Below are positions 7,851-54,611 of a DNA stretch of 57,180 nucleotides, one piece after another (within the stretch, counting starts at the first letter, position 1; every line of letters begins with the position of its first letter). The translations under genes were made by a program, and so were the position numbers. This DNA is from Prevotella sp. (GTDB lineage: Bacteria > Bacteroidota > Bacteroidia > Bacteroidales > Bacteroidaceae), in assembly GCA_017475265.1 (NCBI GenBank), contig JAFVFY010000028.1:1-57180 (forward strand), in the 5' to 3' direction. The notes under the pieces were generated by a model. The model did no database searches and was not told where the DNA came from. It saw nothing but the letters and a program-made list of their open reading frames with translations.

Positions 7851-7970
7851 CCGGGGGCTTACACCCCCGTCTGTAATCTGTCGCCCTTTCAGGGCTTTTG
7901 TCTTGGTCGGTGTCACTGCTCCGGGGGTTATCACCCCCGTCTGTAATCTTACCGCCCCTTTGGGACTTTC
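7851..7970. repeat. Pair of REP-like units, right of the transposase, inverted
   Basis: Units at 7851-7899 and 7921-7970 are the reverse complement of those on the left (CCGGGGGCTTACACCCCCG, then TCTGTAATCTGTCGCCC). Both pairs point away from the transposase gene symmetrically, forming a composite about 740 bases long. Confidence 0.85.
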
Positions 7971-51560: not shown

Positions 51561-52106
51561 CACAACAATAAAAATGCTGACAAGGCCGTTTATCTCATTG
51601 CCCTCCTCAACTTCCGGCTAGAAGGACTTGAGAAGGAGCTGCGCACCGACGTGGCACTCATGGACATGAAGCGGCACACGCTCTTCTCCGACAAGGTACG
51701 CATGGTATTCCTCCAGCTGCCCTATTTCACAAAGGAACTGGATGAATGCGAAGATATTTTCGAACGAATCATTTACGTATTGAAGCACATGGATATATTA
51801 CAGCGGATGCCGTTCCTGGCACAGGATGCCGTTTTCAAGCGGCTCTCAGAGATTGCCGACGTCGCGTCGCTCTCCAAGGAAGAGCGCAGAGAGTATGACA
51901 AGAGCCTGAAGCACTACCGCGACACCATCGCCGTGATGCACGGCCAGTGGCTTGAGGGTCATGCCTCCGGGCTTGCTGAAGGCATGGAGAAAGGCATTGA
52001 GAAGGCCAAGTATGAAGATGCACGACAGATGAAAGCCGACAATATGCCAGTGGAGTTTATTGCCAAATATACCGGCCTCACGAAAGAAGTGATAGAGGTC
52101 TTGTAA
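51561..52106 (+). pseudogene. Rpn-family nuclease/transposase, 5'-truncated
   Basis: An open frame without a start codon begins at 51561 and reads NADKAVYLIALLNFRLEGLE. It is followed by VALMDMKRHTLFSDKVRMVF, LPYFTKELDECEDIFERIIY and a C-terminal coil with GLAEGMEKGIEKAK. This is the C-terminal half of the PD-(D/E)XK Rpn/PDDEXK_2 family, abundant in Bacteroidales as recombination-promoting nucleases. The nuclease core with its catalytic residues lies upstream of 51561 in intact genes and is absent. ATG 51651 could still start a 151-residue fragment, but it would lack the active site. Confidence 0.8.
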
Positions 52107-52945
52107 CCACCGTTAAACTCTAATTCTTCTTAAATAATCTCCGAGTCGCCCAGCGGTTCGGATTTTTGTTCGTATCTTTACAGTTGCAAAGTTACTAACT
52201 TTTCGGGTAACGGCAAAGCTTTTAGTAAATTGTAACAGTTTTCGTACAAGTTCCAAACCGGTGTAAAGACATCAGCAACAGTGGCACAGCCATTGTCGCT
52301 GCTGTTGAAAAATATTTACATTGACCCCTCTGAGAATCCGATTTTTTGAATGAGGTGTTTGGTGGATTTTGCGTATGAGCCAGTTTTGACAGGGTTCGTT
52401 TCCGCGTTTTTCACGCCACTGCTCAGCTATGGGCTTTTTGCCCCTTAAAACTGTTTCGTTTTAGTCGGTTTTTACCGAAAAAGGTGGTCTTGTAGTACAA
52501 GACCATATCTTTTGTAGTACAAGACCATATCTTTTGTAGTACAAAACCATATCTTTTGTAGTACAAGACCATATCTTTTGTAGTACAAGACCATAGCTTT
52601 TGTAGTACAAAACCATAGCTTTTGTTGAACAAAACCAGTGCTTTTCTACTACTAACCCGCTCACTTACTACCATTAGACTGGCTGTTTGGCTCCAAAAAG
52701 GCCTCAATGGATGCCTCGAAGACCCTTTTTCGGGGTATTTTCCAACCGCGAAAAACACCTGTTTTAAGCGAAATAGAGGTAAACAAGTGTTAAGTTTGTG
52801 TAATTTTAAGTCACTTTCTGCACAAAAGAGGGGGATTTGTGCAGGGTTATGAAGCGCGATTCCTGCAAAAAACAGCCGGTTTAGGCAGCTTTTTGCGCTA
52901 GATGGTCATCTTTTAGGAACACTTTTTTCTGCACTTTTTCTTTAC
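52107..52945. other. Gene-poor accessory spacer
   Basis: About 840 bases with no convincing gene. The only clear structure is the 22-bp array at 52486-52640. TAAGTTTG at 52791-52798 could be a -7 box for the nuclease-like gene downstream. The stretch 52850-52950 is open in the frame of that gene but has neither a start codon nor similarity. Confidence 0.5.
52486..52640. repeat. 22-bp tandem array with TTGTAGTACAA dyads
   Basis: TAGTAC recurs at 52493, 52515, 52537, 52559, 52581 and 52603 with exact 22-base steps, and TTGAAC takes its place at 52625. The unit is CTTTTGTAGTACAAGACCAT plus two bases. Each core TTGTAGTACAA is a perfect odd palindrome. Confidence 0.93.
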
Positions 52946-53014
52946 ATTTCACTTGAACTTGCCAAACTACACATTCTGACGGGGGCTGACTTTATCCGTC
53001 AACTGAAGCTGATT

Positions 53015-53479
53015 GTGTCAAGTGGAGAGTTCCACCCTGTGGAAGGGGAGAAAGACATCTTTTCCGTTGGTGGTGAAAACGGCGAGAACTACGACAACCT
53101 GATGAATGCTGCCCGGAAGGCCGTTGAGCATGGGTACAGGGTGTTCCTTCTTCCAAATCCTAAAGGCATCAGGACGGCAGACTTCATCTTTGAGCGGAAG
53201 GGAGTTTACAAGATGTTTGACCTGAAAACTATTACAGGGAAAAGTTCTGTTAGCACGCGCTTGATGGAATCTATTGGCCAAACGAATCATGTTGTACTTA
53301 ATATGGCTACTGATTACGAACCTCGTTTGTTGGCCAAAGACATACAAGCATATTTCGAGAGTAACCGTGACGCGAGAGAAGTGCTTATACTGAAAGGCTT
53401 AAAGTTCTTGTCAGTGTCACGTCGCTTCGTTGAGGGCAACGATTATGTCAAGATGTTCATGAAACGCTATCTCAGATAG
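53015..53479 (+). CDS. PD-(D/E)XK nuclease-like protein, copy A (start codon doubtful)
   Basis: The C-terminal 130 residues match the CdiA-C-type toxin fold: NAARKAVEHGYRVFLLPNP, then RTADFIFERKGVYKMFDLKT with the Asp...Asp-x-Lys nuclease pattern, SIGQTNHVVLNMATDY and EVLILKGLKFLSVSRRF. It is a paralogue of the gene at 53849. Similarity between the two extends upstream of the GTG at 53015 (ELAKLHILTGADFIRQLKLI versus ELALLHTLNGGDFSRQVEKI) back to about 52952, but no ATG, GTG or TTG exists there in frame. Either the 5' end was lost or a rare start is used. It is followed by a hairpin shared with a convergent RNA candidate. Confidence 0.6.
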   Translation: MSSGEFHPVEGEKDIFSVGGENGENYDNLMNAARKAVEHGYRVFLLPNPKGIRTADFIFERKGVYKMFDLKTITGKSSVSTRLMESIGQTNHVVLNMATDYEPRLLAKDIQAYFESNRDAREVLILKGLKFLSVSRRFVEGNDYVKMFMKRYLR

Positions 53480-53481
53480 CA

Positions 53482-53506
53482 AAAGAGCCTCCTATGGAGA
53501 CTCTTT
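53482..53506. terminator. Bidirectional terminator after nuclease-like gene A
   Basis: AAAGAGCCTCC (53482-53492) and GGAGACTCTTT (53496-53506) pair with one mismatch about a 3-base loop. T runs follow on the minus strand (TTTTGC); the plus strand gives CTTTAATC. It sits between the gene and the convergent RNA. Confidence 0.75.
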
Positions 53507-53575
53507 AATCTGGGTAGTGTCGATATAGTCTTGCCCTCTCGGGATTCTGCCCGGATAGCCAAACTTGAGGTTTGA
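53482..53575 (-). ncRNA. Candidate structured small RNA, copy A
   Basis: The minus strand has a TATCTTTG -7 box (53581-53588). The transcript would start near 53575 and run about 95 bases to the terminator hairpin. It contains a first hairpin CAAAC-CTCAA-GTTTG (53560-53574), then a 21-base segment 53540-53560 identical to copy B, with CGGG...CCCG, then GGGCAAGACTATATCGACAC. No plausible coding frame. Copy B at 54405-54527 has the same order. Promoter, structure and conservation all suggest an RNA gene; no known family is recognised. Confidence 0.55.
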
Positions 53576-53580
53576 CGCTG

Positions 53581-53659
53581 CAAAGATAAGCATTTTTCCC
53601 GTCCCCTCCAAATTTTTCCTCAACTTTCTTTGCTGGTTTACAAACATTTTGTAATTTTG
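53581..53659. promoter_or_regulatory. Divergent promoter region, copy A
   Basis: Minus-strand TATCTTTG at 53581-53588 and plus-strand TAATTTTG at 53652-53659 face away from each other. The left part, GCATTTTTCCCGTCCCCTCC and then AAATTTT, is identical to copy B at 54533-54611. Confidence 0.65.
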
Positions 53660-53848
53660 TAGCCGACACTGTAGGGGCTGGCCCCATGCCAGCCCGATGC
53701 CCTCGAGGGCAATGCGGTGCCAAGACATCGATGGGACACCGGAGGCTGAAAACACCGTTTGTAAAGACAGCCGAAGGGAAAGGCGTTTAACGGACGTTAC
53801 CGTTCTGTGCCCTCAAACTTAGCATCGGGCGGGAACAAACAGTAATTA
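53660..53848 (+). promoter_or_regulatory. Structured leader of nuclease-like gene B
   Basis: About 185 bases between the TAATTTTG box and the ATG, with no gene. Several short stems can be drawn in order: GGGCTGGC/GCCAGCCC, the palindrome GCCCTCGAGGGC, CGGTG/CACCG, GGCTG/CAGCC and AACGG/CCGTT. The first stem belongs to a GTAGGGGC...GCCAGCCCG repeat also seen in the fimbrial anchor gene. Confidence 0.5.
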
Positions 53849-54403
53849 ATGGGCGAACATAGCAACGACATAACACAGGAACTGGCACTACTACATACTC
53901 TCAATGGCGGTGATTTCTCACGTCAGGTGGAAAAGATAGCCCACCGTGGCGAGTTTCACCTGATTGAGGGTGAAACAGATATATACTCCGTAGGCGGTGA
54001 ACAGAGCGATGACTACCAGAACCTACTCGTTGCCGCACGCAAGGCAGTAGAGTTTGGTTATCGGGTATATATGCTTCCTAATCCGCGTAACATCCGTACC
54101 GCTGATTTCATTTTTGAGAAAAGAGGCATATTTCGCCTGTATGATTTGAAGACAGTTTACGGAAAGTCATCTGTAGGGCAGAACCTATTGGACTCCATCG
54201 GACAGTGCAATCGTATTCTTTTGAACATAACGCGAGAATACAATACTCGTTCGCTGGCATACGCCATTAAAAGATACTTCGAGATAAGCGATAAAGCCGT
54301 TGAAGTTCTCGTCATCAAAGGCCGTAAGCGCGTCTCTGTCAATCGTCCAATGGCTATGAGTGATACCTTTTTCCCAATGTTCAAAAAAGCATACGAAAGA
54401 TAA
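53849..54403 (+). CDS. PD-(D/E)XK nuclease-like protein, copy B
   Basis: 184 residues, MGEHSNDITQELALLHTLNG at the start. The helical N-terminus (about 1-35) is followed by GEFHLIEGETDIYSVGGEQ, a helix with AARKAVEFGYRVYMLPNP, then RTADFIFEKRGIFRLYDLKT and SIGQCNRILLNITREYNTRS. The Asp...Asp-x-Lys pattern and the following Gln-containing helix match CdiA-C-like PD-(D/E)XK toxins. No secretion signal and no immunity-like neighbour are seen. In polymorphic toxins this domain sits at the end of a large protein; as a stand-alone gene its role is unknown. The stop codon overlaps the terminator hairpin shared with the convergent RNA. Confidence 0.7.
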   Translation: MGEHSNDITQELALLHTLNGGDFSRQVEKIAHRGEFHLIEGETDIYSVGGEQSDDYQNLLVAARKAVEFGYRVYMLPNPRNIRTADFIFEKRGIFRLYDLKTVYGKSSVGQNLLDSIGQCNRILLNITREYNTRSLAYAIKRYFEISDKAVEVLVIKGRKRVSVNRPMAMSDTFFPMFKKAYER

Positions 54404-54427
54404 AACCATCCTAAAAGGGATGGTTTT
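54402..54427. terminator. Bidirectional terminator after nuclease-like gene B
   Basis: AAAACCATCC (54402-54411) and GGATGGTTTT (54418-54427) form a perfect 10-bp stem. It overlaps the TAA stop codon at 54401-54403 and can end transcripts from both sides. Confidence 0.8.
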
Positions 54428-54527
54428 AAAGCGGAGTAGTGATCGTGATGTCTTGCTCCAAGGGCGGTGTCGGTACTGTCCTGCCCCCCGCGGGATTCTG
54501 CCCGGATAGCCAAAACATTTGTTTTGA
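54405..54527 (-). ncRNA. Candidate structured small RNA, copy B
   Basis: TATCTTTG (54533-54540, minus) starts a transcript of about 120 bases. The first hairpin is CAAAAC-ATTT-GTTTTG (54511-54526), one pair longer than in copy A with both arms changed together. The 21 bases 54491-54511 are identical to copy A. GGGCAGGACAGTACCGACAC follows. It ends at the terminator after gene B. The middle part before the terminator is longer than in copy A and unrelated. Confidence 0.55.
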
Positions 54528-54532
54528 CGCTG

Positions 54533-54611
54533 CAAAGATAAGCATTTTTCCCGTCCCCTCCAAATTTTTTGGCAGTTTTCTTTGTCGATTCATAAATATT
54601 TAATAATTTTG
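54533..54611. promoter_or_regulatory. Divergent promoter region, copy B
   Basis: Minus-strand TATCTTTG (54533-54540) and plus-strand TAATTTTG (54604-54611). Spacing and left half match copy A; here the plus-strand side drives the BspA-like gene. Confidence 0.65.

Follow-up and report, generated by a model that had tools for sequence, protein, structure and literature searches.

Convergent structured RNAs paired with toxin-like nuclease genes in Prevotella and in prophages: probable RNA antidotes

Background

The closest described relatives of the locus reported here are the type III toxin-antitoxin systems, the MuF polymorphic toxins and the nuclease toxins of contact-dependent growth inhibition (CDI). 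In the type III layout, as set out in a passage of PMC12373285, the RNA array lies ahead of the toxin gene, and one transcript reads through a terminator into that gene; the same paper reports direct binding of the C. difficile RNA RCd22 to AbiF. MuF toxins are a known family, and an excerpt of PMC5576092 reports a small open reading frame (ORF) following 89.4% of 191 of them, while Bacteroidales MuF toxins such as Bxa are assigned protein immunity genes in a section of PMC11699363. The CDI toxin structure PDB 4G6V is that of a tRNase according to a description in PMC9086364. Here we analyse a 57,180-nt stretch of Prevotella sp. DNA (contig JAFVFY010000028.1 of assembly GCA_017475265.1; hereafter the window), in which two CdiA_C-like nuclease genes follow one another and each runs up against a short RNA candidate encoded on the opposite strand.

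An initial annotation of the window had pointed out these two copies, both of which are present, and recognised no named system of this design. That judgement still holds in the open-access papers searched in PubMed Central, where no description of such a nuclease-RNA pair was found; most subscription papers and preprints lie outside this scope. Combining covariance models, protein profiles and inspection of gene neighbourhoods, we find that the toxin-like nuclease and the RNA form a linked pair, which is strongly supported, and we propose that the RNA is probably an antidote to the nuclease. The evidence throughout is comparative sequence, and most of the genomes are metagenome-assembled.

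Linkage of RNA1 and the nuclease

A search of the window genome with the core pattern of the RNA candidates returned four copies, one with two mismatches. These four seeded a covariance model, from which the promoter is absent and whose E-values are rough. The family so defined, RNA1, has 10 copies in the window genome and 140 matches across the genus. The initial annotation had made its proposal depend on further copies in relatives, and these occur in 69 of the 299 genomes. In Rfam, no match above the gathering score was found at the RNAs. Subsequent counts refer to 105 RNA1s (107 fetched matches minus two repeats of the same places, L015); about a quarter of the 140 matches, mostly the lowest scoring, fall outside this set, and the counts therefore describe the better-scoring part of the family.

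Seen from the RNA, 62 of the 105 have an opposite-strand nuclease behind the 3' end in a tblastn search with the two window nucleases as queries, and all but three of these matches lie within 100 nt of that end. With a profile, 44 RNA1s face an intact nuclease, 22 a fragment and 33 none, and 6 face a contig end. Seen from the protein, in a search that is itself blind to the RNA and uses a profile built from 24 RNA-flanked nucleases, RNA1 is located between -2 and +35 nt of the match end in 83 of 83 nuclease loci, namely the best 80 of 170 loci on GTDB contigs and all 3 on viral contigs; the weakest RNA1s among them are those of L183 (E 0.02) and L164 (E 3.6e-4). Across the 299 genomes, RNA1 is found within -4 to +82 nt of 67 of 68 full-length nucleases (profile residue 9 or earlier to residue 181 or later, with partial matches excluded). 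The two protein-side sets overlap, many loci being the same genes. Homologous nucleases lacking the RNA, which the initial annotation had named as evidence that would speak against it, are thus almost absent. Its suggestion of a toxin with an RNA partner is strongly supported as regards the linked pair, and its interpretation as a whole is partly supported.

The sole exception among the 68 is a MuF fusion (G157, L153), whose slot, unmatched by the RNA models, has a near-promoter box (TATCTTCG) together with hairpins and a terminator. A partial match outside the 68 (G119, residues 25-183, L152) has a different RNA, RNA2, without RNA1, and the nuclease fragments L013 and L161 have no clear RNA1. 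Toxin-RNA units occur in tandem in the window and at L060 and L068, which have three RNAs each. Some nuclease-free RNA1 copies (L068, L072, L075, L109, L038) adjoin genes of toxin-antitoxin-like or mobile character (PIN, HepT-like, DUF2442 and UmuC-like), perhaps by chance within variable islands.

Structure and promoters of RNA1

The P1-P2-P3 structure of RNA1 pairs in 91.6% of the cells of 102 distinct rows, against 84.8% in shuffles, and contains 142 double-changed cells, against 61.2; control structures slid along the alignment pair in 27.7-49.1% of cells. The 82 distinct rows reached via the nuclease give similar numbers in an alignment fitted to the model. Among 91 distinct rows, 54 have G-C and 32 have A-U at pair 44-66, 68 have A-U and 20 have G-C at pair 48-63, and pair 27-38 occurs as G-C, C-G or A-U. 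Pair 46-64 is C.A in 42, C-G in 26 and U.G in 21, C.A and U.G being near-isosteric. The initial annotation had taken a difference in hairpin 1 between the two window copies as a compensated change. That difference amounts to one extra A-U pair; true compensatory changes are nevertheless present in the collected family. An RNA1 pseudoknot joining the P3 loop to the terminator arm was considered and dropped on inspection by eye, as its candidate pairs do not appear to change together.

Conservation is concentrated in P3. P1 varies in sequence with its pairing kept, and P2 varies in size, from a short hairpin up to forms with long insertions. A strict text pattern finds two P3 modules in 12 of the 105 RNA1s, one in 92 and none in 1. 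The resulting one- and two-module types cluster on the nuclease tree, with 4 changes against a shuffled mean of 12.2 and none of 500 shuffles as low (chosen proteins shorter than 150 aa excluded, L164 in no group); such clustering would be expected from linkage alone.

Upstream of the RNA, 95 of the 105 starts have a TAnnTTTG box in the preceding 14 nt, compared with 11 of 2100 random 14-mers, and TTG is present in the -33 zone of 101, a figure without a computed background. In the rows viewed, terminator-like stems behind RNA1 differ in sequence and keep their place. The box is commoner in the window than expected (43 occurrences against 21.6), so that single boxes are weak evidence. A sigma-70 scan, which does not cover Bacteroidetes promoters, found promoters in the window no more frequent than in shuffles.

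MuF fusions in prophages and viral contigs

Where the nuclease occurs in a prophage or viral contig, it forms the C-terminus of a MuF protein. Five of the six fusions tested reach the Phage_Mu_F (PF04233) cut-off of 29.6 bits, with scores of 30.9-61.4, and L152 remains below it at 13.9; at one fusion locus several PHROG matches are to head and packaging proteins. The window nucleases are standalone and have no MuF domain. Directly behind the toxin stands the convergent RNA, and the next ORF is not consistently small in the nine loci read. A small same-strand ORF follows the RNA at L149 (81 aa) and L152 (65 aa), whereas at L150, L151, L163 and L164 the next same-strand ORF encodes a phage-type protein of 187-218 aa; small ORFs lie on the other strand at L153, and no ORF lies near behind the RNA at L165.

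MuF genes of the genus served as a control, for which 30 of the 38 MuF places found were used. Four of the 30 loci carry the nuclease, and three of these have RNA1; none of the other 26 does. Within the 26, the MuF frame is readable in 23 and at least 150 nt are available behind the stop in 22, and three loci (L341, L345, L353) match a nuclease profile weakly (E 0.0004-0.004). Since RNA1 is confined to the nuclease-bearing MuF loci, the RNA accompanies the nuclease domain and not the MuF gene.

The nuclease family

PF18451 (CdiA_C) matches the two window nucleases at 18.6 and 24.5 bits, short of its curated cut-off of 26.6. The best fold match of the modelled nuclease is CdiA-CT (PDB 4G6V), an enzyme not known to need an RNA cofactor, and the model supports a distant kinship with CdiA_C. 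The protein has the conserved D and (D/E)xK of PD-(D/E)XK enzymes: among 44 sequences D86 and K101 are invariant and D99 nearly so, and a second clade has ExK in the motif. In PD-(D/E)XK enzymes these are the catalytic residues. No ToxN-type chain is among the 50 structure matches listed, an absence that excludes nothing. A likeness to ribosomal protein L23 (E 0.03 and 0.007) was weak and was taken as chance. The PADLOC and plasmid searches gave no match. The window genome contains 9 nuclease places, several of them fragments.

Layout of the two units in the window

Nuclease 1 (52856-53479, plus strand, read as an open frame from stop to stop; PF18451 E 3.2e-5, below the cut-off) is 53% identical to nuclease 2. 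Its homology to relatives starts at about 52946 and the listed start is a GTG at 53015; because the open frame has no ATG, the gene may be 5'-damaged. It faces RNA A (53480-53577, minus strand; one P3 module), which the covariance model recovers at E 2.5e-23, this copy being in the training set. The two share a terminator stem (53482-53506), and the P3 hairpin, the most conserved part of the RNA, occupies 53512-53536 on the minus strand. The -7 box of RNA A, TATCTTTG, lies at 53581-53588 (minus strand), with TTTG at 53609-53612 and a spacer of 20 nt. Facing nuclease 2 on the plus strand is the box TAATTTTG at 53652-53659, with TTTG at 53629-53632.

Nuclease 2 (53849-54403, plus strand) is intact, with 184 aa and a modelled CdiA-CT-like fold. 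It shares a terminator stem (54401-54428) with RNA B (54429-54529, minus strand; E 7.2e-25, likewise in the training set), which has two P3 modules, at 54462-54487 and 54433-54459. The -7 box of RNA B, again TATCTTTG, is at 54533-54540 (minus strand) with TTTG at 54561-54564, and a plus-strand TAATTTTG at 54604-54611, outside the pair, faces the BspA-like gene. RNAs A and B are identical over 47 nt (from 53571 and 54523), which comprise the RNA 5' end and the promoter, and over a further 24 nt (53540-53563 and 54491-54514).

Measured against this layout, the initial annotation was right about an identical core, which it had put at 21 bases. It had also described bidirectional terminators, of which that of copy B is listed by the terminator scan and that of copy A, missing from the scan, is seen as an 11-bp stem in the fold. 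The divergent promoter pairs it described do have opposite boxes at both copies, with the caution about single boxes given above.

The BspA-type leucine-rich repeat gene adjoining copy B (PF13306, 54690-55583) has no sign of membership in the pair. Upstream of the pair are the remains of a transposase of the PD-(D/E)XK family (PF12784, E 1.3e-12, 51651-52106) and, just before nuclease 1, a tandem array of units of about 22 nt, seen by eye (52495-52640). Elsewhere in the window, a borderline Rfam match to Acido-Lenti-1 RNA (37.8 bits, cut-off 37) is located at 7851-7896.

Other toxin clades and RNA families

An order-wide search of 295 genomes revealed a distant nuclease clade in two further genera; within one family it is present in 6 of 14 genomes, all belonging to the same genus, and a single genome may contain as many as 11 matches. 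Of the 37 places examined, 26 are distinct by their last 60 nt, and 24 of these have a convergent promoter box behind the stop. RNA2 follows the stop codon in 23 of the 26 by a strict word and in 25 by eye, L287 being without it. The 3' part of RNA2 folds as an H-type pseudoknot. In an alignment limited to the 21 distinct modules that fit a text pattern, the second stem has 91.2% of its cells paired and 48 cells doubly changed, against 60.1% and 12.5 in shuffles and at most 57.8% and 18 in slid controls. Double changes in all 7 pairs are less telling, as 166 of 500 shuffles have them likewise.

RNA2 is also present at the MuF fusion L152 and in phage vB_RanS_PJN03. The nuclease of this phage shows 30% identity across 80% of the query, and the protein that bears it has no MuF match; in the phage search, one record of 50,697 contained the nuclease. 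Two small opposite-strand ORFs follow the RNA2 gene of this phage (L289, 4615-5245) and could be extra immunity or regulatory genes. Among three distant matches within the phylum, L321 is followed by a promoter box and a candidate hairpin RNA; no such box was found behind L322, which is short and in an odd frame, or L323.

A second toxin-like family, of about 147 aa, was noticed through an RNA copy in the window genome, copy C, that lies beside one of its members. It matches LPD3 weakly (E 4.8e-4, below the cut-off). Of the 26 places examined 19 are distinct (L362-L391); 16 have a convergent RNA3, 2 have RNA4 and the last is cut by a contig end. In 15 places RNA3 is a tandem pair of hairpins, each of about 34 nt, and another place has a single repeat. 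Its structure is paired in 90.6% of cells with 23 double-changed cells, against 83.0% and 6.8 in shuffles; further pair types are no commoner in RNA3 than in shuffles. Copy C itself (L003 1485-1740, L389; contig C89) joins an RNA1 core to two RNA3 hairpin repeats, and the same composite is found at L362 and L386, convergent to an LPD3-like gene. The gene beside the composite is a remnant in the window genome and intact in a relative. The composite suggests swapping of antitoxin modules. These observations raise a broader hypothesis, to which we give even chances: a general, hitherto unrecognised class of RNA immunity in Bacteroidota phages and their domesticated descendants, in which toxins of at least two families (the CdiA_C nuclease and the LPD3-like proteins), virion-borne or standalone, have dedicated convergent antitoxin RNAs, RNA1 to RNA4, whose modules are swapped and, as in C89, joined for protection against more than one toxin.

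Proposed function and alternative explanations

We consider it likely, from the sequence comparisons, that the unit combines a nuclease toxin with a separately transcribed structured RNA as its immunity factor, or antitoxin. The toxin would be a CdiA-CT-type PD-(D/E)XK enzyme, perhaps a tRNase; fused to MuF, it would, like other MuF toxins, travel with the phage particle. The RNA would be expressed from its own promoter, read towards the toxin stop codon and folded into a small scaffold. The conserved module of this scaffold (P3 in RNA1, the pseudoknot in RNA2, the tandem hairpins in RNA3) would then bind and neutralise the toxin inside the lysogen or host cell, in the manner of ToxI and RCd22. 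Standalone pairs such as those of the window would probably be domesticated phage cargo that serves as toxin-antitoxin or anti-competitor units, and nuclease-free RNAs would be orphan immunity genes.

Full nucleases almost never occur without the RNA, whereas the RNAs often occur without a nuclease, which is the asymmetry expected of an antidote. The same linkage would be expected of an RNA that the nuclease needs as cofactor or guide, the two forming an active ribonucleoprotein for defence or phage competition, in the way of RNA-guided effectors. This alternative, which would also suit the conserved structured core and the clustering of RNA type with nuclease clade, we regard as unlikely: 33 of the 105 RNA1s have no nuclease, as expected of immunity rather than of a cofactor, and the nearest fold, 4G6V, is that of a described tRNase (passage in PMC9086364). 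As for a guide, no obvious variable unpaired segment was seen in RNA1, loops and 3' tails lying outside the analysis, and its variable hairpin 1 is paired.

An RNA encoded on the opposite strand, adjacent to the toxin gene and behind a promoter box could instead act in trans on the nuclease mRNA, as a type I-like antisense or another regulator that is not a protein ligand. We consider this improbable, as the overlap with the gene is limited to the vicinity of the common terminator, and in 77 RNA/mRNA pairs (from 77 of the 83 loci, mRNA 5' region only) complementarity does not exceed that of shuffled RNAs, with a mean z of 0.07 and one value below -2. Comparison of three RNA1 cores with 33 tRNAs of the window genome (which has 40 tRNA matches; tRNA-Ala is outside the set) gave no support for mimicry, the best scores being reached by 19, 17 and 90 of 100 shuffles. 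As the RNA resembles neither the complement of the toxin mRNA start nor the tRNAs compared, direct binding to the toxin protein is, by analogy, the most likely route.

The cassette-like tandem units, together with RNAs beside other toxin-antitoxin-like genes, might point to an element acting as DNA (in recombination, in packaging, as a cassette end or in an integron-like manner), with RNA folding incidental. The promoter box at a fixed place, the terminators, the compensatory changes and the presence of differing RNA families in the same slot make this a little less probable again. The initial annotation had also envisaged a mobile expression cassette lending its promoter to varied cargo, and the opposite-facing promoter boxes between the window units would fit such a role. 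We find this proposal unsupported and very improbable, because on the nuclease side, which is the side surveyed, what stays constant is a nuclease gene whose end faces the 3' end of the RNA, at the same narrow distance in all 83 loci.

Several points count against an RNA antitoxin. Besides the linkage being shared with the cofactor explanation, the nuclease profile was derived from RNA-flanked nucleases, the GTDB-contig count covers the best 80 of 170 loci, the two protein-side counts overlap and metagenome-assembled genomes predominate. The 33 RNA1s beside other genes (PIN, HepT-like, UmuC-like, DUF2442) could mean a wider role, and the small ORFs at L149, L152 and L289 could be protein immunity genes. 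A simple tRNA decoy is unsupported, RNA1 showing no likeness to the 33 tRNAs (without tRNA-Ala). Finally, unlike the RNA of type III systems, the RNA here is convergent, lies behind the toxin and has its own promoter box.

Immunity to MuF- and CDI-type toxins is protein-based in the cited sources. If correct, the antitoxin proposal would connect phage effectors with type III-like RNA antitoxins and with little-known noncoding RNAs of Bacteroidota, explain toxin-like genes that have no evident immunity gene and provide several searchable RNA families. It would also open to experiment the way in which an RNA blocks a tRNase-like enzyme and the possible protection of cells by orphan RNAs against phage-borne toxins.

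Comparison with known systems

The LPD3 domain belongs to the polyvalent proteins, and the second toxin-like family, which resembles it weakly, differs by its pairing with RNA3 or RNA4; in the text of PMC5512222, on polyvalent proteins, a search for the term "noncoding RNA" found no occurrence. The PD-(D/E)XK toxins of CDI (CdiA-CT of B. pseudomallei 1026b, 4G6V; E479, 5J4A) are borne by CdiA and adjoined by a CdiI protein, whereas the nuclease described here is standalone or MuF-fused and its adjoining partner is an RNA. With the MuF polymorphic toxins of temperate phages (Bxa of Bacteroides stercoris among them), the fused units share PF04233 joined to a C-terminal toxin domain; there, small ORFs are taken as protein immunity genes in the relevant passages of PMC5576092 and PMC11699363, and here the gene immediately following the toxin is that of a convergent RNA.

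The type III toxin-antitoxin systems (ToxIN, CptIN, TenpIN, AbiQ) and the type III-like AbiF-RCd22 combine a protein toxin with a small structured RNA, as the putative toxin and RNA described here would, and AbiF-RCd22 is phage-encoded, as are the MuF-fused units. The tandem modules of type III RNAs may have a counterpart in RNA3 and the two-P3 form of RNA1, and ToxI contains a pseudoknot, as does RNA2. Type III toxins have the ToxN/AbiQ fold, and the modelled nuclease has its best match in CdiA-CT. Because the type III gene order is lacking, we do not file the unit as a member of that type, although by analogy it would work like one.
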